42,802 nucleotides of DNA from assembly GCA_947450165.1 (NCBI GenBank), contig CANFUJ010000006.1, positions 1 through 42,802 of the forward strand, given 5' to 3'. The notes beneath the pieces were generated by a model. It searched no databases and had not been told where the DNA came from. It saw only the letters and a list, made by a program, of their open reading frames with translations. Within the stretch, counting starts at the first letter, position 1, and every line of letters starts with the position of its first letter. Source of the DNA: Chitinophagaceae bacterium (GTDB lineage: Bacteria; Bacteroidota; Bacteroidia; Chitinophagales; Chitinophagaceae). The position numbers were made by a program, and so were the translations under genes. This document shows positions 17,994-42,591 of this stretch, piece after piece.

Positions 17994-18014
17994 TTAAATT
18001 TACAATTGGTCCAA

Positions 18015-18356
18015 ATGAGATTGATAGGCAAGAAAATACTTTTAAAACTTAAAAAGAAAAACATTGGCAATCTAAGGTTGTGTAATGAAATAGACAAGTT
18101 GATAATTGATTTAGAAAAATTTTTACCTAAAGAAAAAAATATTTTTGACATTAGGTCTGATGCAGACAATGTTCATAGTGATGGATTTTATTTTTTTGAT
18201 TTGAATTTTCATAGAACGTTGATTTTAGTAGAGTTTGATAATGATGGTGAGGCAACAATTGTTTGGGTAGGAACTCACAAGGATTATGAAACAACCTTTA
18301 AAAACAATAAAACGACCATTGAAAAATGGTTAAGAAAAAATGGATATATAGAATAA
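18015..18356 (+). CDS. higB: HigB-like toxin (RelE-type mRNA interferase superfamily)
   Basis: 113 residues from the ATG at 18015; a TTG at 18006 is possible but less likely. A basic N-terminal helix region (GKKILLKLKKKNIGN) is followed by the core: NIFDIRSDADNVHSDGFYFFDLNFHRTLILVEFDNDGEATIVWVGTHKDYET, given here only as separate blocks DIRSDADN, FYFFDLN, TLILVEF and WVGTHKDY. The D-R-S-A-D, F-x-L and GTHxxY pattern fits the HigB toxin family. The toxin-first order and the overlap with a helix-turn-helix gene fit higBA. These toxins cleave mRNA on the ribosome. The N terminus is a little longer and more basic than usual. Confidence 0.75.
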   Translation: MRLIGKKILLKLKKKNIGNLRLCNEIDKLIIDLEKFLPKEKNIFDIRSDADNVHSDGFYFFDLNFHRTLILVEFDNDGEATIVWVGTHKDYETTFKNNKTTIEKWLRKNGYIE

Positions 18357-18904
18357 TGAAAACACATTTTGATATAGAAAAAATTGTAGAAATGGGCATA
18401 ATCACCAATGAGTTGGATTATGAAAGAGCGTTAATTGCAGATAGAAAACTAAGGCTACTTGGGAAGGAAAATGTACACTTTAAAAATCTAAGAAAAAAAT
18501 TACGCGGCATCATTGAAAAGTATGAAAACAAGGAATGGGGTACAGTCGAAACAATTGATGAAAAAAAACTTTTAGAAAGCGAGAAAGCGGAAAATTTAGC
18601 TGAACTAGAAAGACAATTTTTAGAAACTAGAAAACAAGAAATTAGAAAAAAACTAAAAGCCCTTGAAATAACGCAAGAAAATCTGGCTTCAATATTAGGT
18701 CATAAAAGTAAGACGCACATGTCGGAATTAATGAATGGGATAAAGCCATTTACGCTAAGGGATTTAATTATTATACATCAACTATTAAAAATAGAAATAT
18801 CAATATTGATTCCTTTGTTTCTTTCAAGAGAGGAACAGATTAAGGTAAATAAAGCGGTTGAGAAATTAGATATATCGAAAGGGGTCAGGATTGGGTATTT
18901 GTGA
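18356..18904 (+). CDS. higA: HigA-like antitoxin with C-terminal helix-turn-helix
   Basis: 182 residues from the ATG at 18356, whose A is the last base of the toxin stop (TAATG), so the two are translationally coupled. Residues about 60-100 are a charged coiled helix (KKLLESEKAENLAELERQFLETRKQEIRKKL). The DNA-binding domain follows at about 104-155 (ALEITQENLASILGHKSKTHMSELMNG and the PFTLRDLIIIHQLL segment). The long N-terminal part is the likely toxin-wrapping region. It should neutralise the toxin and repress at the palindrome upstream. Confidence 0.75.
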   Translation: MKTHFDIEKIVEMGIITNELDYERALIADRKLRLLGKENVHFKNLRKKLRGIIEKYENKEWGTVETIDEKKLLESEKAENLAELERQFLETRKQEIRKKLKALEITQENLASILGHKSKTHMSELMNGIKPFTLRDLIIIHQLLKIEISILIPLFLSREEQIKVNKAVEKLDISKGVRIGYL

Positions 18905-19605: not shown

Positions 19606-19760
19606 TCGACTTTGGCTTTTGCTAAGTCGAAATTCGTTAGCCGAAACCTTGTTGCGTTTGATAAACACATTTTCAAACTGAGCAATGACGATCAAACCGA
19701 CATAATGATGAAATTAAAATTGTAATATTGATGAGTAAGAATGTTCGTCACAAAAAAATT

Positions 19761-19800
19761 TCCCAACACCTCATCATTGTCAAGTTTACCCTCCATTAAT
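19761..19800 (+). repeat. Left copy of a 40-bp direct repeat flanking the five-gene operon
   Basis: Begins TCCCAACACCTCATCATTGT. It matches 25041-25080 at 32 of 40 positions, and at 19 of the first 20. It lies 50 bases before the first ATG of the operon. Confidence 0.7.
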
Positions 19801-19850
19801 AAAAGTTAACATAGAATAGGCTTAAATGAAAAAATTATGATAATATAGAC

Positions 19851-20945
19851 ATGGGCAACTCATTTTTTAAAGAGATCATCTATTCTTCTAGTAACGAAGA
19901 CTCTGAATCTGAACTGAAAGCACTTCGCATTAATGCTAATGATGTAATATTATGTATTACGGGAAGTGGTGCGAGGTCTTTGGACCTTTTGGTAGATTCC
20001 CCTAAAAAGATAGTAAGTATCGATTTTAATGAAACCCAGAACTTCCTTTTAGAATTAAAAAAAGCAGCATTTAAAGTTTTAAATCATGAGGAATTAATTA
20101 AATTTTTAGGCATTGATTCTTCAAAAGATAGACTGCAAGTGTATACTCGACTTCAACCACATTTATCTGAAAATGCAATTGCGTTTTGGTCCAAAAACCT
20201 AAATTATATACATCAAGGCGTTTTGTATTGTGGAAAATGGGAACGAATATTAAAAGCTTTATTAAGATTGTCGTCTTTTAGAAAGCGTACTATAAAAAAA
20301 CTTATTAACGCATCTACAATTGAAGAGCAAAAGAATATATGGAATAACAAATGGGACAATATTATTTGGAAAATGTTTTTGAAAGTTATTTCCAATAGAT
20401 TTTTATGGATTAATATTATCCGAGAACCTGGTGCGAAGTTAATTCCTAAAAACTTTGATGTATATGCATACATGAAGCGTCTTATTGAATATTTGGCCAA
20501 CAACTTTTTAATAAAAGAAAATCATTATGCCAATTTACTTTTTAATGGCAGTTACCTAAACTCATGTATTTTACCTCATCATTTACGCAAAGAAAATTTC
20601 GAGTTAATTAAAAACAATATTGATAAAATTGAAATTGTAACTGGGAGTTTATTGGATTATTTATCAGCGCATAAGAATGAATTTTCGGCTTTTTCTGTTT
20701 CAGATTTTTCTTCCTATGCTCCCGAAGAATTGTATCATTCTATTTGGAAAAATATTTTATACGCTTCTGCCGAGCATGCAAAATTTTGTGAGCGAATGTT
20801 TCTAGTTAAAAAAAATCCAGAGAAAAGATTTAAAGAAATTAAAAGAAATTCGGAGTTAGAAGAGAAATTGTTTTTAGAGGATGAAACCGCAATTTATACA
20901 TTTTGTGTTGGCACAATTATTAAAAATCCAACTTTATGTCCATAA
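19851..20945 (+). CDS. DUF3419/BtaA-like family protein (possible SAM 3-amino-3-carboxypropyl transferase)
   Basis: 364 residues. The SAM-binding part resembles BtaA: DVILCITGSGARSLDLLVDSP (31-51) is the glycine loop and IVSIDFNETQNFLLELK (54-70) the acidic ribose-binding strand and helix. BtaA transfers the 3-amino-3-carboxypropyl group of SAM to the hydroxyl of diacylglycerol, forming a homoserine ether lipid. No BtaB-type N-methyltransferase is nearby, so betaine lipid itself is not predicted. A helical middle and the DFSSYAPEELYHSIWKNIL block (about 285-303) also fit the family. First gene of a five-gene coupled operon; its end overlaps the next gene by 10 bases. Inference: it decorates a hydroxylated product made by the neighbouring enzymes. 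Confidence 0.65.
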   Translation: MGNSFFKEIIYSSSNEDSESELKALRINANDVILCITGSGARSLDLLVDSPKKIVSIDFNETQNFLLELKKAAFKVLNHEELIKFLGIDSSKDRLQVYTRLQPHLSENAIAFWSKNLNYIHQGVLYCGKWERILKALLRLSSFRKRTIKKLINASTIEEQKNIWNNKWDNIIWKMFLKVISNRFLWINIIREPGAKLIPKNFDVYAYMKRLIEYLANNFLIKENHYANLLFNGSYLNSCILPHHLRKENFELIKNNIDKIEIVTGSLLDYLSAHKNEFSAFSVSDFSSYAPEELYHSIWKNILYASAEHAKFCERMFLVKKNPEKRFKEIKRNSELEEKLFLEDETAIYTFCVGTIIKNPTLCP

Positions 20946-21934
20946 TACTTTTTACAGGAACATCTGGTTTTTTAGGGGGGAGAGCAGCTAAACATTTTGC
21001 TTCAAACTCTTCAAAAAACACAATCGTTGCAACAGCAAGAAGAACAAATAGAAAAGATGAATTAGAAGCCCAAGGCTGTAAATTTATTGAAGGGGATTTA
21101 TTAAAAACTGCTTTTTGTGAGGAATTAACGAAAGGCATTGATGTGGTTGTTCATTGTGCGGCTCTTTCTTCTCCATTTGGAAGTTATCAATCGTTTTACG
21201 AATCGAATTTTTTGGCAACCAAACATTTGTTGGATGCTAGCATTAAAAATGGTGTCAAAAAATTCATCTTCATTTCAACACCCAGTATTTATTTTAATTT
21301 TAAGGACCGTTTTAATATTAAGGAATCAGACCTTCTTCCTTCCCCTCTTGTTAATCATTATGCCACCACAAAATTATTGGCAGAGCGTTATGTTTTGGAT
21401 GCAAATGAAAAAGGAATCCAAACCATTGCATTGCGACCACGAGCAATTATCGGAGCAGAAGACACTGTAATTTTCCCAAGGATATTATTAGCATATAACA
21501 AGGGTAAATTGAAGGTTGTTGGAAATGGCAAAAATACATGCGACTTCACTTGTGTTATAAACGTTATTGAGGCAATAAATTGTTCGATAAATGCACCTGT
21601 AAATTCATACGGACAAGCGTATAATATTACAGATGGAATGCCTTTGCTTTTTTGGGAGTCATTAAACTATGCGCTCACTGGACTTGATTTAGCACCTGCA
21701 TTTAAAAAGGTTCCTTTTTCAGTAGCTCTTTTTGCCGCAAGTGTTGCGGAAATGAAATCAAGATTATTTAAAAGCAGTAAAGAGCCTTCTCTTACAAAGT
21801 ATGGGGTTGGGATTTTGGCAAAAAGCATGACATTGGATATTTCAAAAGCGAAAAATCAATTAAATTATTTTCCTGTGATGAGCACTCACGAAGGAATAAA
21901 TGAATATATACAATGGCACAAGAATCAGAAATAA
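20936..21934 (+). CDS. NAD-dependent epimerase/3-beta-hydroxysteroid dehydrogenase-like reductase
   Basis: 332 residues, extended short-chain dehydrogenase fold. The nucleotide loop is GTSGFLG (8-14), followed by the VATARR segment (31-36). The catalytic motif YATTK (Y142, K146) and the upstream FISTPSIYF (112-120) supply the Ser/Thr. LRPRAIIG follows as in the 3-beta-HSD/OleD-like group. This subgroup oxidises or reduces a secondary alcohol/ketone next to a bulky lipid or sterol group. In the operon it may reduce the beta-keto product of the ketosynthase encoded at 24027. It overlaps both neighbours (10 and 22 bases). Exact substrate unknown. Confidence 0.75.
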   Translation: MSIILFTGTSGFLGGRAAKHFASNSSKNTIVATARRTNRKDELEAQGCKFIEGDLLKTAFCEELTKGIDVVVHCAALSSPFGSYQSFYESNFLATKHLLDASIKNGVKKFIFISTPSIYFNFKDRFNIKESDLLPSPLVNHYATTKLLAERYVLDANEKGIQTIALRPRAIIGAEDTVIFPRILLAYNKGKLKVVGNGKNTCDFTCVINVIEAINCSINAPVNSYGQAYNITDGMPLLFWESLNYALTGLDLAPAFKKVPFSVALFAASVAEMKSRLFKSSKEPSLTKYGVGILAKSMTLDISKAKNQLNYFPVMSTHEGINEYIQWHKNQK

Positions 21935-22755
21935 AATTGAGCTTTTATGCTTCCGGATATTGTGAGGCACACGCACGTGTTGTTGACCCTATTCATGGAA
22001 AAGGAAAAAAGAAATTCTATGCCGTTTGGGCTTTCCTTCAAATTCCTGATGTTGGCAATGTATTGTTTGACACCGGTTATAGTGAGGAATTTAATGCAGC
22101 CACTCGTCGTTTTCCAAATCGTTTTTACCGTTGGGCGACTCCCATAACTTTGAATTTAAAACATACCGCAAAAAATATACTTGAAGAGCAAGGGATTGAT
22201 TCAAAAGAGATTGATTATGTAATTGTTTCTCATTTTCATGCAGATCACATATCGGGGTTGAGAGATTTTCCCAATGCAAAATTTATCTGTTCTGAAAGCG
22301 CTTATCGGCAAGTTCAAAAAATCTCAGGATTGAAGGCAGTAAGTAAAGGAATTATACACCAACTAATTCCAAGTGATTTTGATAAAAGGGTCATATTCAT
22401 AGAAGAATTTGCAGACCACATAATTGTAAATAAATATGGCATCACTGAATTTTCATTTTTTGGACTAAAGAATTTAAAACTGTTATTATTACCAGGTCAT
22501 GCAAAAGGGATGCTGGGTTTTCATTTTAGAAGTGCTGAAAAAAACATTTTATTTGCAACAGATGCATTTTGGGATTACACTTGTTTTCGGAATGCTATCT
22601 TACCATCTAAAGTAGTCAAACTATTTTTCGATTTCTGGGATGATTTTGTAGCCACCAATAAAAATCTAAAAAACATGGAGGATTCTGAAGAAGGAATTAC
22701 CATTCTTTTTACCCATTGCCCTAAAACGTTAACATATATTTCGAATGAGATTTAA
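21913..22755 (+). CDS. MBL-fold metallo-hydrolase (lactonase-like)
   Basis: 280 residues. The zinc motif is SHFHADH (H107, H109, D111, H112), with further ligands H196 (LLPGHAKGML), D217 (FATDAFW) and H268 (FTHCP). The sequence FYASGYCEAHARVVDP at the start and LFDTGYSEEF at about 51-60 are like the acyl-homoserine-lactonase branch of the superfamily. All metal ligands are present, so it should be active as a hydrolase of an ester, thioester or lactone. It overlaps the previous gene by 22 bases and the next by 11. Cytoplasmic, no signal peptide. In a pathway with homoserine-type chemistry a lactone substrate is plausible but unproven. Confidence 0.75.
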   Translation: MAQESEIKLSFYASGYCEAHARVVDPIHGKGKKKFYAVWAFLQIPDVGNVLFDTGYSEEFNAATRRFPNRFYRWATPITLNLKHTAKNILEEQGIDSKEIDYVIVSHFHADHISGLRDFPNAKFICSESAYRQVQKISGLKAVSKGIIHQLIPSDFDKRVIFIEEFADHIIVNKYGITEFSFFGLKNLKLLLLPGHAKGMLGFHFRSAEKNILFATDAFWDYTCFRNAILPSKVVKLFFDFWDDFVATNKNLKNMEDSEEGITILFTHCPKTLTYISNEI

Positions 22756-24037
22756 GTTTAAAATTATTTTTTATTGGTTAAAAATTCTAGCTCTCCCTCG
22801 ATTTGATTCTAGAGAAAAGATAGAAAGACATCAAGCAAAACAATTAAAAAAATTTGCTAGAAATGTACTTACTAAGTCGGCTTATTATAAGCTCTTCATA
22901 AAAAATGGAGAATTAGATTTGACTGATTTGCCAATGATTTCGAAATCTGAATTCATGTCATCCTTTAATGAAATTAATACACAAGGGATTTTACTTGAAG
23001 AAGCATTACATGTAGCTATTGAAGCGGAAAATTCGAGAGATTTTAAAAGTGAAATAAACGGAATTACAGTTGGCTTATCCACAGGTACTAGTGGCAAAAG
23101 AGCTGTGTTTTTGGCCTCAGAGGATGAGCGAGCAATTTGGGTTGCATTGGTCATGAGCCGTGTGATAAAACCCAAAATTTTTAAACGACAAAAAATAGCA
23201 TTCTTCCTTAGATCAAATAGTAATTTATATTCTTCAGTTGAATCAAGTTTATTTGAATTTAAGTATTTTGATATTTTTAAACCCATGTCAGAATTGTTGC
23301 AAGAACTTAATGAGTATCAACCTGATATTCTTGCTTCTCAACCTTCTATCTTAACAGATATTGCTGAAGCTCAAAAAAAACAGATTGTCCATATTCAACC
23401 TATTCAAATAATTTCATTTGCTGAAGTTTTACATGAGTCTGATAAAACAGAGCTAAAGAAAATATTTGATTCCAAATTAAGTGAAGTGTATCAATGTACA
23501 GAAGGTTTTTTAGGTGTAAGCTGTGCATATGGAACAATGCATCTAAATGAAGATTTTATTCATTTTGACAAAGAATGGATTGATGATGAGTTGTTTTACC
23601 CTATCATCACTGATTTCTCAAGACATAGTCAGCCTGTTGTAAAGTATAAGTTGAATGACATACTACAAATAAAAAAAGAGGCTTGTCTTTGTGGTTCAAA
23701 ATTTATGGCATTGGAAAAAATAATTGGAAGAGATGATGATGTTTTGATTTTTTCCGGAAAAAAAATATATCCAGATTTAATCTCAAGACGAATCGCTTTA
23801 CAAACAAATTCTTTTAATAAATATAGCATTACTCAAGTAGGTCCAATGGAACTTCAAATTGGAATCGAATGCGATCCAGCAATCTATGACTCTTTAATCA
23901 AAGTGTTTCAAAATGTGCTTGTTACTTTATTTGAAGAATTTGAGATCTCAGGAGTGCATTATGATTTTCAAAACAAAGTAGATTATACTACTGGAAGTAA
24001 ATTAAGAAAAATTAAACGATTTAATTATGGGAATTAA
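22745..24037 (+). CDS. PaaK/CapK-type adenylate-forming enzyme (F390 synthetase-related)
   Basis: 430 residues. The ATP loop is LSTGTSGKRAVFL (111-123). The later ANL motifs are present: YQCTEGFLG (249-257), VVKYKLNDIL (298-307) and IIGRDDDVLIFSGKKIYP (326-343). A C-terminal lysine region (TGSKLRKIKRF) follows. The CLCGS pair of cysteines (315-317) is shared with PaaK-like zinc-containing members. Such enzymes activate a carboxylate with ATP to an adenylate and often pass it to CoA or another acceptor. Here the likely role is to activate a fatty or hydroxy acid. It overlaps neighbours by 11 bases each side. No acyl carrier protein is encoded nearby. Confidence 0.75.
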   Translation: MRFKFKIIFYWLKILALPRFDSREKIERHQAKQLKKFARNVLTKSAYYKLFIKNGELDLTDLPMISKSEFMSSFNEINTQGILLEEALHVAIEAENSRDFKSEINGITVGLSTGTSGKRAVFLASEDERAIWVALVMSRVIKPKIFKRQKIAFFLRSNSNLYSSVESSLFEFKYFDIFKPMSELLQELNEYQPDILASQPSILTDIAEAQKKQIVHIQPIQIISFAEVLHESDKTELKKIFDSKLSEVYQCTEGFLGVSCAYGTMHLNEDFIHFDKEWIDDELFYPIITDFSRHSQPVVKYKLNDILQIKKEACLCGSKFMALEKIIGRDDDVLIFSGKKIYPDLISRRIALQTNSFNKYSITQVGPMELQIGIECDPAIYDSLIKVFQNVLVTLFEEFEISGVHYDFQNKVDYTTGSKLRKIKRFNYGN

Positions 24038-25016
24038 CATACTTGCAATTGAAAAATATTTACCGAAAAATCGGATTTCATCCGAAGAGCTAGATAAAGT
24101 TGTAAATGGCAGAGTTGGTAGAATTGAGAAAAATTCAGGTGTGAAATTCAGGCATCATGTTTCAGAAAATGAAACTGTTGCCCAGATGGGCGCAAATGCC
24201 CTTACAAAAGCACTCAAAAAAGCTAATTTAAAACCCAAAGATCTTGATTTACTAATTTTTTCAGGAGCATCTTTCGATTACCCTGTTCCCCATAATTCGG
24301 CAATCATAAAATCTAAAATCGCTACAGATGAAGTAAACTTCCATTGTTTTGATATTGATAGCACTTGTTTAAGTTTTATGAATGCACTTGATGTAGCACA
24401 ATTGTATCTTGAAGCTGGAAGGTATAAAAGAATAGCCATAGTCAGTTCAGAAATTGCCTCTAAAGCTTTAAGTCCTCATGATGAAAAAGTTTTCGGATTA
24501 TTTGGTGATGCTGCCGTTGGCATTATACTTGAATCGTCATCAACTACAGGATATAAACAAACATTTGCCAATTTTAAAAATTTTCCATCTGGCGCATTAC
24601 AAGCTTGTGTTCCGCTTGGTGGAGCAGTCAATCGAGGTATTGATGCTTCAGCCAATGACAAGGGTTATTATTTTAAAATGGATGGAAGTGGAATGATTCG
24701 ACTTTTAAAAAAATATTTTGATGGGTTTATAAAAGAAATGAATGAAAAGACCAACTACAACATCGCAGATTTTGATGCCATCATTACGCATCAAGCAAGT
24801 AGATTTGGAAATGAATTCTTTTTGAACAATTACCATCCCAGAGCTGATCAAATGGTAGATACCTTGTCAATAAATGGAAATTGCATTTCTGCATCAATTC
24901 CTCTTGGATTAGAATTGTTGATAAATAATAATCCTGATACTAAAAATAAAAAAATATTGATCTTAGGAGCAGGAGCAGGATTGAGTTTGGGCGCTTTAAT
25001 TTTAGAATTTAATTGA
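24027..25016 (+). CDS. 3-oxoacyl-ACP synthase III-like ketosynthase (FabH/OleA type)
   Basis: 329 residues, normal KAS III length. The catalytic triad is readable: C114 (DSTCLSFMNAL), H255 (ITHQAS) and N285 (INGNCISASIP). The GLFGDAAVGIIL block (157-168) and the C-terminal LGAGAGLSLGALIL match the family. The HQAS in place of HQAN and the absence of fab genes beside it argue for a specialised enzyme rather than housekeeping FabH. KAS III enzymes join an acyl thioester to malonyl-ACP or, in OleA, to a second acyl chain. It is the last gene of the operon; the right direct repeat begins 25 bases after its stop. Confidence 0.8.
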   Translation: MGINILAIEKYLPKNRISSEELDKVVNGRVGRIEKNSGVKFRHHVSENETVAQMGANALTKALKKANLKPKDLDLLIFSGASFDYPVPHNSAIIKSKIATDEVNFHCFDIDSTCLSFMNALDVAQLYLEAGRYKRIAIVSSEIASKALSPHDEKVFGLFGDAAVGIILESSSTTGYKQTFANFKNFPSGALQACVPLGGAVNRGIDASANDKGYYFKMDGSGMIRLLKKYFDGFIKEMNEKTNYNIADFDAIITHQASRFGNEFFLNNYHPRADQMVDTLSINGNCISASIPLGLELLINNNPDTKNKKILILGAGAGLSLGALILEFN

Positions 25017-25040
25017 ACCTAATTTAATTATAGATTTTCA

Positions 25041-25080
25041 TCCCAACACCTCATTATTGTAAAGTACACCCACTATAAAC
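25041..25080 (+). repeat. Right copy of the 40-bp direct repeat flanking the five-gene operon
   Basis: Begins TCCCAACACCTCATTATTGT; same orientation as 19761-19800 and 5,280 bases from it. The remainder of the 260-bp gap before the next gene shows nothing I can name. Confidence 0.7.
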
Positions 25081-25276
25081 AGAACAAAGATTTTCCAATA
25101 GTAAAAACAAATCAAAATGGCTATTTCATTAGAGTATGGTTTTTACGGCCATGGTTTTTATTAATAAAGAAGTTAGAAAAGAGTATTTTGAATTATTTTT
25201 TTAAACATCTTACTTTCCCAATAAAATCTGTCAACCAATTGCTTAACAAAATTTCGTTAACTTTAAAATTCACTAT

Positions 25277-38770: not shown

Positions 38771-41479
38771 TTAAGCATCCAATATTGGCATCAACCATTT
38801 GGTTGTTTCTTCAATAGTCATTCCCTTTCTATTAGCATAATCTACAACTTGATCGTTTTCAATTTTTCCAACGCCAAAGTATTTGCTTTCGGGATGTGCA
38901 AAATACCACCCGCAAACAGATGATGCAGGATACATCGCTAATGACTCTGTTAGATGAATGCCTGTATTTTCTTCGCCACCCAATAACTCAAACAATTTGT
39001 ATTTTTCGGTATGATCGGGGCAGGCTGGATATCCTGGAGCCGGACGAATGCCTGAATATTTTTCTTGTATTAAATCTTCGTTAGATAGTTCTTCATTTTG
39101 TTCATATCCCCAAAAATCTGTTCTGGTTTTTTTATGCATTAATTCTGCAAAAGCTTCTGCCAATCTATCTGCTAGTGCTTGTAAAATGATTTTATTATAA
39201 TCGTCTAGGTTGTCTTCAAATCGCTTGATATGTGTTTCTATTCCTTGAATCGTTACAGAAAATGCGCCGATGTAATCTTTTTTATCAGGATGAACAAAAT
39301 CGGCTAACGACAAATTAGGTTGACCTTCTGCTTTTTTAATTTGTTGTCTTAAAAACTCAAGGCGTATATTTGTACCCGTTATGTTAACACTATCAGGTGC
39401 TGATTTTTCAACTTCCCAGAAGCCAACAGTTCCTTTTGCACTAAGCCATTTTTCTTCAATGATTTGTTTTAATAAAGCTTGTGCATCTTGATATAACTTA
39501 GATGCTTCTTTGCCAATAATTTCGTCTTCTAAAATTGCTGGAAACTTTCCGTGCATTTCCCATGCAATGAAAAATGGTTGCCAATCGATGTAGGTTGCAA
39601 TTTCTCCTAGATCATAATCATAACTATCAAACACTTTATTACCTGTAAACGTTGGCTGAACTGGGTTGAAGTTTTCCCAATTTATAACGGCACTATTTTT
39701 TTGTGCTTCATTAAACGGCAATAATTTTTTCGCTGTTTTTTTATTTCCAAAATCTAGTTTTAGTTTTTCGTATTCCGATTTTATATCTCCTAAAAAACCA
39801 ACTTTTAAATCTTGATTAAGCAAATTTCCTGCAACGGTTACACTTCTAGATGCATCAAGCACATGAACCACACCTTGTTCAAATTCAGGTGCAATTTTTA
39901 CAGCTGTGTGCATTCTACTGGTGGTGGCACCTCCGATTAATAACGGCTTGTTTATTTTCAAACGCGTCATTTCTTTAGCAATGTGAACCATTTCATCCAA
40001 TGACGGCGTGATCAATCCACTCAAACCAATGATATCAACATTATGCTTTTGTGCTTCAGTTAAAATTTTATCTGCCGAAACCATAACGCCCAAATCTATT
40101 ATCTCATAACCATTACAACCCAATACCACACCAACTATATTTTTACCAATATCATGCACATCACCTTTTACGGTTGCCAATAATATTTTTGCTGGTCCTT
40201 TTTCATCTGCTTGATTAAAATCTCCTGCCGCTTTATTGTTTCTTCTATCTTCTTTTTCTTGTTCGATAAATGGTGTTAACACAGCCACAGCTTTCTTCAT
40301 TACACGCGCACTTTTCACAACCTGTGGTAAAAACATTTTTCCTGCGCCAAACAAATCACCTACGATATTCATTCCATCCATTAATGGTCCTTCAATTACA
40401 TCAAGTGGCTTTGGATATTTAATTCTTGCTTCTTCTGTATCTGCATCTATATATTCTGTAATGCCGTGTATTAGCGCATGTTCCATTCTCTTCTCTACAG
40501 ATTCTTTTCTCCAGCTTTCATCTTTTATAACAACTTTCCCTTTTGCTTTTACCGTATCTGCAAACACAATCAACTTTTCGGTTGCACCATTATCATCGTT
40601 GTTTTTATTTAAAATTACATTTTCACAAAGCTCTTTTAATGTTGGTTCAATATCATCGTAAATTACCAGCTGTCCTGCATTTACAATACCCATATCCATT
40701 CCTGCTTTTATGGCATGAAATAGAAACACACTATGAATCGCTTCTCTCACATGATCATTTCCCCTAAATGAAAACGACACATTACTCACGCCACCACTCA
40801 CTTTGGTTAATGGCATCAACTTTTTTATTTCTCTAGTAGCTTCAATAAAATCTACCGCATAATTATTATGCTCTTCGATTCCTGTTGCTATTGCAAAAAT
40901 ATTGGGATCAAAAATGATTTCTTCCGGAGCAAAGCCAACTTGCTCGGTTAGTATTTTATATGCACGATGACAAATCTCTACTTTTCTTTGTTTGGTGTCC
41001 GCTTGCCCTACTTCATCAAAGGCCATTACAATTACAGACGCACCAAAGTTTTTACAGATAATCGCTTGCTCGATGAATTTCTCTTCTCCTTCTTTCATCG
41101 ATATTGAGTTTACAATACATTTTCCTTGTACACATTTCAATCCAGCTTCTATGATTTCAAATTTACTGCTATCAATCATGATTGGAATCTTTGCAATGTC
41201 TGGTTCCGCTTGTAACAGATTTAAAAATGTAGTCATTGCTGATACGCCTTCTAGTAAGGCATCATCCATATTGATGTCTAAAATTTGTGCGCCACTTTCT
41301 ACTTGTTGACGAGCAACAGAAAGCGCCTCTTCAAATAATCCCTCACGAATTAAACGTGCAAACTTTTTACTACCGGTTACGTTAGTACGCTCCCCCACGT
41401 TTACAAAGTTGGTTTCTGGGCGAATGATTAATGGTTCTAGGCCACTTAATCTGAGGTATGGGTTGATATGTTGTTTCAT
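38771..41479 (-). CDS. metH: Cobalamin-dependent methionine synthase, folate, B12 and activation domains
   Basis: 902 residues, carrying the last three of the four MetH modules. Folate (pterin-binding) domain about 20-285, with [17 protein letters not shown] and [14 protein letters not shown]. Cobalamin cap and Rossmann domain about 320-560, with DVHDIG (440-445); H442 is the cobalt ligand. It is followed by [14 protein letters not shown]. Activation (SAM-binding) domain about 570-902 with [15 protein letters not shown] near 818-832. It makes methionine from homocysteine and methyltetrahydrofolate. The homocysteine domain is encoded by the gene upstream, 101 bases before this start. Such splits are common in Bacteroidota. 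Confidence 0.96.
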
Positions 41480-41491
41480 AAAAAAATTTCA

Positions 41492-41545
41492 GACGTTCAA
41501 AAGGTTCAATGAGTTCAATGAGTTCAAAAGGTTGGAAGCATTTTC
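41492..41545 (-). repeat. 9-nt phased repeat array inside the methionine synthase operon
   Basis: On the reverse strand it reads GAAAATGCTTCCAACCTTTT then 9-base units TTGAACTCA (two exact) and TTGAACCTT. The order and flank match the array at 8151-8265. It fills most of the 101-base spacer between the two metH genes. Confidence 0.65.
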
Positions 41546-41580
41546 GATTAGTGTCTTTTTGTTTCAATTGGTTTTTCTTA

Positions 41581-42591
41581 TCAATCTAAAACCACAGGCA
41601 ACTCCCTCGGTTTAAATTTACTCACTTCTTCTGCAATGTGTTTGATATGATCTGGGGTTGTTCCACAACATCCACCTACAATATTTACAAATCCCTCTTT
41701 TGCCCATTCTTCAATGATATGCGCTGTTTCGTGTGGTTGCTCATCATATTCACCAAACGCGTTTGGCAATCCTGCATTAGGATAAGCCGATGTGTAACAC
41801 TTAGCAATAGACGACAACTCTTCAATATGTGGACGCATTTCGCTTGCTCCAAGTGCGCAATTCAAACCAATGCTCAAAGGGTTTGCGTGTATTAAAGAAA
41901 TATAAAACGCTTCAAGCGTTTGTCCGCTTAACGTTCTACCACTTGCATCGGTGATGGTGCCACTAATCATGATCGGTAGTTCGGGTAAGTTATTTTTTCT
42001 AAAGAAATCTTTTATAGCATAAATAGCAGCTTTAGCATTTAACGTATCAAAAATGGTTTCAACCAATAATACATCTACGCCTCCATCTACCAAACCTTTT
42101 ATTTGTTCTTCATATGCAATAGCTACTTCATCAAAAGTTACTGCACGATATCCTGGGTTATTTACATCTGGAGAAAGTGAAAGCGTTTTATTTAAAGGTC
42201 CAATAGCGCCAGCCACAAATCTAGGTTTATCCGGGTTTTGAGCCGTGTATTCATCCGCAGCAATACGCGCACATTTTGCAGAAGCCACGTTTAATTCATA
42301 CGCTAGTTCTTGCATATCATAATCTGCTTGCGCAATGGTTGTGCTGCTGAATGTATTTGTTTCAATAATATCTGCACCCGCATCCAAATATTGTTTGTGA
42401 ATCCCAATAATAATGTCGGGTTGCGTAATGCTCAATAAATCATTATTTCCTTTTACATCCTTATGCCAGTTTGCAAATCGTGCGCCACGGTAATCTGCTT
42501 CTTCAAGTTTATGACGCTGAATCATTGTACCCATTGCGCCATCAATAATTAAAATCCTTTCTTTTAAAAGGTCTTTGATGTTATAATTCAT
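41581..42591 (-). CDS. metH: Methionine synthase, homocysteine-binding domain as a separate protein
   Basis: 336 residues, a (beta/alpha)8 homocysteine S-methyltransferase domain. Zinc-binding cysteines are C245 (GLNCALGAS), C308 and C309 ([12 protein letters not shown]). The N terminus has [16 protein letters not shown] and the loop ETNTFSSTT (77-85). It binds and activates homocysteine through zinc and hands it to the methylcobalamin of the partner protein. It is the first gene of the pair, upstream of the 902-residue protein. No obvious riboswitch is seen in the 211 bases before it. Confidence 0.93.

Follow-up and report, generated by a model that had tools for sequence, protein, structure and literature searches.

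The characterised BtaA of the BtaAB pathway, a DUF3419 protein, alkylates a hydroxyl; its partner BtaB is an N-methyltransferase, and the product is the betaine lipid diacylglyceryl-trimethylhomoserine (DGTS). The Ole and lipstatin beta-lactone pathways associate a condensing enzyme of the thiolase superfamily with an OleD-like short-chain dehydrogenase/reductase (SDR) and an adenylate-forming enzyme, and have variable neighbours; lipstatin-type clusters carry in addition a nonribosomal peptide synthetase and a formyltransferase. Biosynthesis of the Pseudomonas quinolone signal (PQS) by PqsA, PqsD and PqsE combines a ligase, a beta-ketoacyl synthase (KAS) III and a thioesterase of the metallo-beta-lactamase (MBL) fold. 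Glu117 followed by proline is a feature of OleA, found in all but two of the OleA proteins in PMC7064751. The operon described here is located in contig CANFUJ010000006.1 of a Chitinophagaceae bacterium (assembly GCA_947450165.1, phylum Bacteroidota), of which the whole stretch analysed, 42,802 nucleotides long, is called the window. The gene content of relatives (a sorting domain of the type IX secretion system, SusC/RagA-type receptors) likewise points to Bacteroidota. The five genes of the operon are:

19851..20945, + strand: DUF3419 (BtaA-related) protein, 364 aa, head gene; Pfam DUF3419 E 3.8e-67; N15, R42, S288
20936..21934, + strand: SDR reductase, 332 aa, core gene; top NCBIfam model OleD; Y142/K146
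21913..22755, + strand: MBL-fold hydrolase, 280 aa, core gene; HxHxDH/H196/D217/H268; nearest to acyl homoserine lactone (AHL) lactonases, below cut-offs
22745..24037, + strand: F390 synthetase-related adenylate-forming enzyme (TIGR02304), 430 aa, core gene, the ligase in the following; 411.9 bits; K419
24027..25016, + strand: FabH-like KAS III, 329 aa, core gene; C114/H255/N285; V87-P88 at the place of the OleA Glu-Pro

The initial annotation had treated these genes as a single fixed pathway. What the data show instead is a core of four genes (SDR, MBL, ligase and KAS) with exchangeable neighbours. That the genes form one coupled pathway, distinct from both DGTS and Ole hydrocarbon synthesis, is supported.

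The operon is real and non-random. All five open reading frames (ORFs) between 19851 and 25016 start with ATG, and the junction overlaps of 10, 22, 11 and 11 bases have been confirmed. Stop-free runs did not exceed 143 codons in 200 mononucleotide shuffles of the operon, versus ORFs of 280-430 aa. The 22-base SDR/MBL overlap is common to five near relatives (L056, L057, L058, L090, L092), and measures 25 bases in a further locus (L055). A chance neighbourhood was rejected on the recurrence of the set and on the trees of DUF3419 and of the core.

Recurrence of the core

The ligase was searched by tblastn against 72,556 plasmid records. Matches were found in 93 records, 40 of which cover at least 80% of the protein, and neighbourhoods were inspected for 19 of the 30 matches listed, plus H38 (the same as H19) and H40, both from the DUF3419 search. 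The core was found across several phyla, its genes mostly overlapping or closely spaced. KAS, SDR, MBL and ligase are contiguous in annotated plasmid records of Paracoccus, Ketogulonicigenium, Escherichia coli, Pseudomonas sp. FeN3W, Paraburkholderia, Rhizobium, Shinella and Roseateles; in Pontibacillus and Paenibacillus an ATP-grasp gene sits between KAS and SDR. BLAST revealed the core also in Burkholderia stagnalis, Fusobacterium vincentii and further Rhizobium and Shinella records lacking usable annotation. Among the clustered loci inspected, those of Pseudomonadota and Bacillota have KAS in first place; in the window and in Fusobacterium it is last. The TIGR02304 loci of E. coli, Paracoccus, Ketogulonicigenium, Pontibacillus, Paenibacillus and Fusobacterium share with the window the four core enzymes, adjacent or nearly so, and the same catalytic residues, but their head genes differ.

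Of the 5426 complete E. coli genomes, 672 carry the core in a seven-gene version, KAS-SDR-MBL-ligase-PAP2-OlsE-like hydroxylase-desaturase, and 671 of the 673 places are chromosomal. In the plasmid record inspected (NZ_CP141085.1, L020:4149-11030) this cluster is located beside narGHJI. The hydroxylase is nearest to OlsE (66.6 bits, cut-off 475), and the desaturase is annotated as an acyl-CoA desaturase. Roughly one complete E. coli genome in eight hosts the core, as do a Fusobacterium record and soil and plant bacteria, yet it has been annotated gene by gene. Literature searches, with subscription literature mostly outside their range, returned no characterised pathway matching this set, as the initial annotation had supposed; neither a publication on the core as a pathway, nor a bacterial DUF3419 cluster, nor anything on TIGR02304 or "CoF synthetase" was found, which does not prove absence from print.

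Ligases scoring above the TIGR02304 cut-off were found in 6 of 395 genomes of a Bacteroidota sample and in 10 of 396 genomes of an order sample, 15 different genomes in all. Eleven of these have the core, in the order SDR-MBL-ligase. Ten of the cores are complete and end with KAS; the other is cut by a contig end before KAS. In the genus of the window the ligase occurs in one of 93 genomes, the window's own (E 1e-30), and was not found in the 92 congeners. In two Pseudomonas megaplasmids, pBASL58 (L097) and pMPPla107 (L098), pieces of the core and an ATP-grasp gene are dispersed among many hypothetical genes.

The initial annotation had proposed a search for the five families together in other genomes. 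They do occur together in Rhizobium sp. NIBRBAC000502774, R. rhododendri and two Shinella oryzae plasmids (L100, L101, L102, L138), in the order KAS-SDR-MBL-ligase-DUF3419-GNAT. The DUF3419 proteins of these clusters fall in the clade of the window protein; the cores are distant from that of the window (29-30% identity for the ligase), and a GNAT gene is present. The expected conservation of gene order thus holds for SDR-MBL-ligase and fails for DUF3419, which is the first gene in the window and follows the ligase in rhizobia.

Catalytic residues and family assignment of the core enzymes

Profile searches returned, in gene order, DUF3419, an Epimerase/3-beta-HSD-type SDR, Lactamase_B, TIGR02304 and ACP_syn_III. 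Residues were counted in alignments of 25 KAS, 26 SDR, 26 MBL and 25 ligase proteins from 26 chosen loci; the KAS of L090 (contig end) and the ligase of L022 are missing, and L103, L106 and L138 are outside the alignments. The catalytic residues reported in the initial annotation are conserved across the aligned loci. The KAS triad C114/H255/N285 is present in 25/25 proteins, Y142/K146 of the SDR in 26/26, and H107, H109, D111, H112, H196, D217 and H268 of the MBL enzyme in 26/26. The G114-T115-S116-G117 loop of the ligase and its C-terminal K419 are kept in 25/25; the C-terminal lysine has the role known from the ANL family.

The ligase had been described as PaaK-like. It belongs instead to the "F390 synthetase-related" family, since it scores 411.9 bits with TIGR02304 (NCBIfam cut-off 251.9) and stays far below the cut-off of the PaaK equivalog model (39.1 bits versus 646.3). 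For the SDR, the top two NCBIfam models describe OleD-type 2-alkyl-3-oxoalkanoate reductases; the first of them, OleD, scores 188.8 bits against a cut-off of 580. The MBL enzyme has the HxHxDH metal site and scores 66.7 bits with the AHL lactonase equivalog (AttM/AiiA), whose cut-off is 390. The KAS scores 169.2 bits with TIGR00747 (FabH; cut-off 292.1), and features the Cys-His-Asn triad. It had been termed FabH/OleA-like, of which the first half stands and the second does not: at the column of OleA Glu117, isoleucine (16), leucine (8) or valine (1, V87-P88 of the window) precedes proline in all 25 proteins. The OleA segment, confirmed in PDB chains such as 3fk5, was placed on this column by eye.

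Membership of the Ole family was rejected, as the OleA glutamate is found in 0/25 KAS. A related route has only a slim chance of being right. The KAS would join two acyl chains without decarboxylation, the SDR would produce a 2-alkyl-3-hydroxy acid, the ligase would close a beta-lactone, and the MBL enzyme would open or edit it. The ranking of OleD-type models for the SDR speaks for this scheme, and the ligase and OleC are both adenylate-forming. PMC7064751 reports oleACD clusters with other flanking genes. The replacement of Glu117-Pro by I/L/V-Pro argues against it, and OleB and OleC models are not among the listed matches of the MBL enzyme and ligase, nor of the other operon proteins. Compared with the Ole and lipstatin pathways, the operon lacks the OleA glutamate, has a ligase of another family and an extra MBL hydrolase, and neither the peptide synthetase nor the formyltransferase of lipstatin-type clusters is among its five genes.

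A route akin to PQS biosynthesis is rather improbable as well. In this, the ligase, taken as PaaK-like, would activate an aromatic acid, the KAS would extend it once, the MBL enzyme would act as a PqsE-type thioesterase, and a small signal or metallophore, not a lipid, would result. PQS-enzyme chains are among the PDB matches of the KAS, although 3h76 (1.7e-15) ranks far behind the best one (1.6e-37); the ligase weakly matches phenylacetate-CoA ligases and FlxY, and a Rieske protein accompanies the core in the ATP-grasp-type clusters of Rhizobium, Shinella and Roseateles. The partners of the E. coli core, in contrast, belong to lipid-modifying families. The window differs from the PQS system also in the additional SDR and in the low sequence similarity of the KAS.

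Exchangeable genes beside the core

The neighbours of the core vary, and may be ATP-grasp and GNAT genes, a sulfotransferase, the set PAP2, OlsE-like hydroxylase and desaturase, a glycosyltransferase, or DUF3419. ATP-grasp and GNAT genes flank the core in L054, L085, L090, L091, L092, Paenibacillus and Paraburkholderia, and were seen with the Rieske protein in the Rhizobium, Shinella and Roseateles clusters of this type; in Pontibacillus the stretch fetched hosts ATP-grasp without GNAT. A sulfotransferase gene is divergent from the core in Paracoccus and Ketogulonicigenium, and directly downstream of KAS in the Bacteroidota genome G123. The Fusobacterium core has a glycosyltransferase as neighbour. 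The partners of the E. coli core (PAP2, OlsE-like hydroxylase, annotated acyl-CoA desaturase) denote a lipid theme. The ATP-grasp, DUF3419 and sulfotransferase families are all compatible with the capping of a nucleophile or a carboxylate.

Partner genes were monitored in 12 Bacteroidota genomes, leaving out three in which the ligase is found without the core (G748, G647, G629) and including a fourth one, G126, where the ligase lies apart and both partners are present. ATP-grasp and GNAT are both found in 10 of the 12 genomes, corresponding to 9 of the 11 that bear the core; in four of the latter they are located away from it. The two core-bearing genomes without the pair are that of the window, which has DUF3419 instead, and G123, which has the sulfotransferase-family gene. 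GNAT occurs in 5 of 390 Bacteroidota genomes, exactly the five non-window ligase genomes of the companion sample (6/395). The hypergeometric probability of this co-occurrence is 8e-11 when genomes are counted and 5e-6 when genera are, to be read with the slightly different sizes of the two samples in mind, and considering that three of the genomes share a genus. No GNAT partner was found in the genome of the window with either a rhizobial or a Bacteroidota-type query, the latter being positive in 10 of the 12 genomes.

Versions of the operon carrying ATP-grasp and GNAT, DUF3419 or sulfotransferase genes should yield products differing by predictable mass, and the swapped head genes thus offer a direct handle on the chemistry of the core.

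The DUF3419 head gene

The window protein matches DUF3419 over its full length (residues 4-350). By tblastn, relatives were found in five of the plasmid records. The best four, 35-36% identical, lie beside the full core and a GNAT gene in the Rhizobium and Shinella clusters described above; the fifth (23% identity) has no core within 6 kb, in a stretch of 13 kb. Within the genus of the window, DUF3419 proteins share 25-29% identity with the window protein, and are encoded in other clusters.

A tree was built with 45 sequences, using 30 of 46 positive genomes; L003, whose match is divided between two ORFs, was left out, as were the partial matches L013-L016. The window protein and the four rhizobial core-linked proteins form one clade, with support 100/99. 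Thirty of the non-core loci were examined for the core with only 1.5 kb of flank. In the tree of the concatenated core (26 loci, with L103 and L106 in addition to those aligned, and without L022, L090 and L138), the window is found among the cores of its own phylum, and the rhizobial cores of DUF3419 type are sister to the rhizobial cores of ATP-grasp type. Window and rhizobial cores are hence separate, and the DUF3419 label needs two changes, which are forced by well-supported branches. We read this as DUF3419 having been acquired twice as head gene, presumably displacing another gene.

E16, D17, D58, K70, D344 and Y349 are invariant in all 45 DUF3419 proteins, BtaA-like and core-linked ones alike. 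Other positions set the core-linked proteins apart. R42 and S288 are found in 5/5 of them, versus N42 in 40/40 others and D (30) or E (10) at position 288; N15 replaces a tryptophan conserved in 39 of the 40 others. Compared with BtaA, the window protein thus has arginine in place of N42, serine in place of D/E288 and asparagine in place of W15; positions 42 and 288 may or may not be catalytic. Because residues otherwise fixed are changed, the acceptor, and even the reaction, are uncertain. The homoserine ether that the initial annotation ascribed to a BtaA-like enzyme is accordingly possible; the difference of the core-linked proteins from the 40 others weakens the parallel. The clade offers a convenient way of testing what governs the choice of acceptor in this family of S-adenosylmethionine (SAM) enzymes.

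A group of 30 sequences in the tree plausibly represents BtaA proper, and the window protein falls outside it. A methyltransferase gene is adjacent in 6 of the 7 loci of this group that were tested, which is what a BtaAB pair would predict, the ORF tested in L137 having no match. Genome G191 hosts the core and, on another contig, a DUF3419 of this group. On the side of the tree that includes the window, GNAT is found near DUF3419 in the rhizobial clusters, in L063 and in L134, and not among the tested neighbours in L067 and L002.

It is extremely improbable that the gene encodes a DGTS-type enzyme lying beside an unrelated core by chance. The full-length match would suit such an enzyme, but DUF3419 again accompanies the core in Rhizobiaceae, within a single clade, residues fixed elsewhere are changed, and the operon includes no methyltransferase. 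BtaB is not among the five genes, the only ones searched for it. On partner and residue tests, membership of the DGTS system was therefore rejected.

A class I SAM-binding fold would be expected of a BtaA-type enzyme. The DUF3419 profile yielded no significant solved relative in sequence searches of the PDB; the one weak match is 2yx1 (MJ0883; E 0.058), a SAM methyltransferase. The AlphaFold model of the window protein, built from a three-row alignment only, is poor (pLDDT 48.6). A viral origin was considered and rejected, since none of the 304 viral-contig stretches fitting the DUF3419 pattern in one scan proved to be a relative; no match to DUF3419 or ligase was found in PHROG.

Some DUF3419 genes unlinked to the core have other neighbours. 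In three genomes of the window's genus (L063, L064 and L065, of G022, G073 and G076, respectively) DUF3419 is clustered with genes for acyl-ACP reductase-like, aldehyde-deformylating-oxygenase-like and GNAT proteins, and in L063 also with one for a fatty-acid desaturase; the family assignments come from L063, which L064 and L065 match in gene sizes and order. In L067 (G129) DUF3419 is found downstream of genes for HMG-CoA reductase, UbiA prenyltransferase and a protein resembling pyruvate phosphate dikinase or phosphoenolpyruvate synthase, the latter found also in L066 (G064); the acceptor in L067 is possibly isoprenoid-linked. In L134:1435-3294 (G275) an N-terminal phospholipid-methyltransferase-like domain is fused to DUF3419, and a GNAT-like gene adjoins.

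Proposed pathway

The recurrence of the core and the variety of its partners make it an almost even call that the four enzymes and an exchangeable head gene form a widespread biosynthetic operon for an acyl product. The KAS triad devoid of the OleA glutamate, and the loop and lysine of the ligase, point to a sequence of activation, decarboxylative condensation, reduction, hydrolysis and capping. The ligase would activate a carboxylic acid as acyl-adenylate or acyl-CoA. The KAS would extend the acyl thioester once by a FabH-type decarboxylative condensation, and reduction by the SDR would turn the resulting 3-oxo into a 3-hydroxy group. The MBL enzyme may then hydrolyse a thioester, or lactone, intermediate, and capping by the head gene product would be the last step. 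The core thus likely yields a hydroxyacyl product, which DUF3419 would cap with a C4 amino-acid unit derived from SAM, on an acceptor that is uncertain. An ATP-grasp ligase or a sulfotransferase would perform the equivalent step elsewhere. GNAT partners would fit acylation of the amine carried by the transferred unit, and the GNAT encoded beside DUF3419 in rhizobia may acylate the newly added amine.

Capping could take place at the carboxyl end instead. The MBL enzyme would release a free 3-hydroxy acid, from which an ATP-grasp enzyme would form an N-acyl amino acid via acyl phosphate, and DUF3419 an O-acyl homoserine ester by alkylation of the carboxylate. Although ATP-grasp is the commonest partner (9 of the 11 core-bearing Bacteroidota genomes tested), this is unlikely, as sulfotransferase variants better suit capping of a hydroxyl, the group that characterised BtaA alkylates. 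Hydroxyl capping is preferred, only moderately, because of the sulfotransferase variants.

Taken in full, the preferred reading predicts an undescribed pathway crossing phyla, whose hydroxyacyl product has an end group set by the head gene, and in which the core-linked DUF3419 is a new aminocarboxypropyl transferase with a rebuilt active site, making an acylated homoserine-type head. In this complete form the proposal is somewhat less likely than not. Several observations weigh against the preferred reading. The ligase is not specific to the core, being found without it in 4 of the 15 genomes above cut-off (G748, G647, G629 and G126; about 8 kb fetched), and core pieces are scattered or missing in pBASL58 and pMPPla107. 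Core-linked DUF3419 is rare in the sequences searched, being seen in the window and four plasmids of one bacterial family; the rhizobial clusters carry a GNAT gene, which the genome of the window lacks. The changes at positions 42, 288 and 15 leave aminocarboxypropyl transfer not assured. Genome G123 is 89% complete, and the missing ATP-grasp and GNAT genes may reflect a gap. The L086 and L019 sulfotransferases share no meaningful BLASTP similarity. Finally, the substrate may be a fatty acid, an aryl acid or another compound.

A possible insertion site

The operon of the window is flanked by a direct repeat:

19761..19804, strand not assigned: 44-base direct repeat, left copy; its homologue in the congener G046 is the 3' end of an SDR gene on the minus strand
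25041..25084, strand not assigned: 44-base direct repeat, right copy; shares 80% identity with the left copy across the 44 bases; homologous to the SDR 3' end of G046 over 25040-25089
19651..19799, + strand: left flank; 80.5% identical to G046, where it takes in the terminal part of a GNAT-like gene (L169:14662-15192) as well as the SDR 3' end

The left copy ends 46 bases ahead of the first gene, and the right copy begins 24 bases past the last one. The left flank (19651..19799) hosts no ORF of at least 90 aa in the window. That the repeats belong to a dispersed family was rejected, as the 30-base heart of the repeat is found at two places only in the 2.63 Mb genome, allowing up to 3 mismatches. 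In the stretches fetched from G046 the repeat is present once (L169:15220-15269), and coincides with the 3' end of an intact minus-strand gene of the short classical SDR type, which sits between homologues of the flanks of the window. Most simply, the operon would have come in as a single unit at the 3' end of the host SDR gene, duplicating this end, after which the host gene would have decayed. The data would also be explained by a former tandem pair of SDR genes. No recombinase was seen among the annotated ORFs of the window, annotation covering part of the ORFs.

The same locus in G046 (L169:8567-18242) hosts different genes, encoding a PhzF-like protein, a TonB-dependent receptor, a PaiA-like acetyltransferase, the SDR and a protein sorted by the type IX secretion system; the site is therefore a variable spot. 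Upstream of the operon (18006-18904), a HigB-like ORF (weak match, E 4e-6) and a helix-turn-helix ORF look like a toxin-antitoxin pair. At the other end of the window (38771-42591) methionine synthase is split into a 902-aa protein, featuring pterin, B12 and activation domains, and a 336-aa homocysteine S-methyltransferase.

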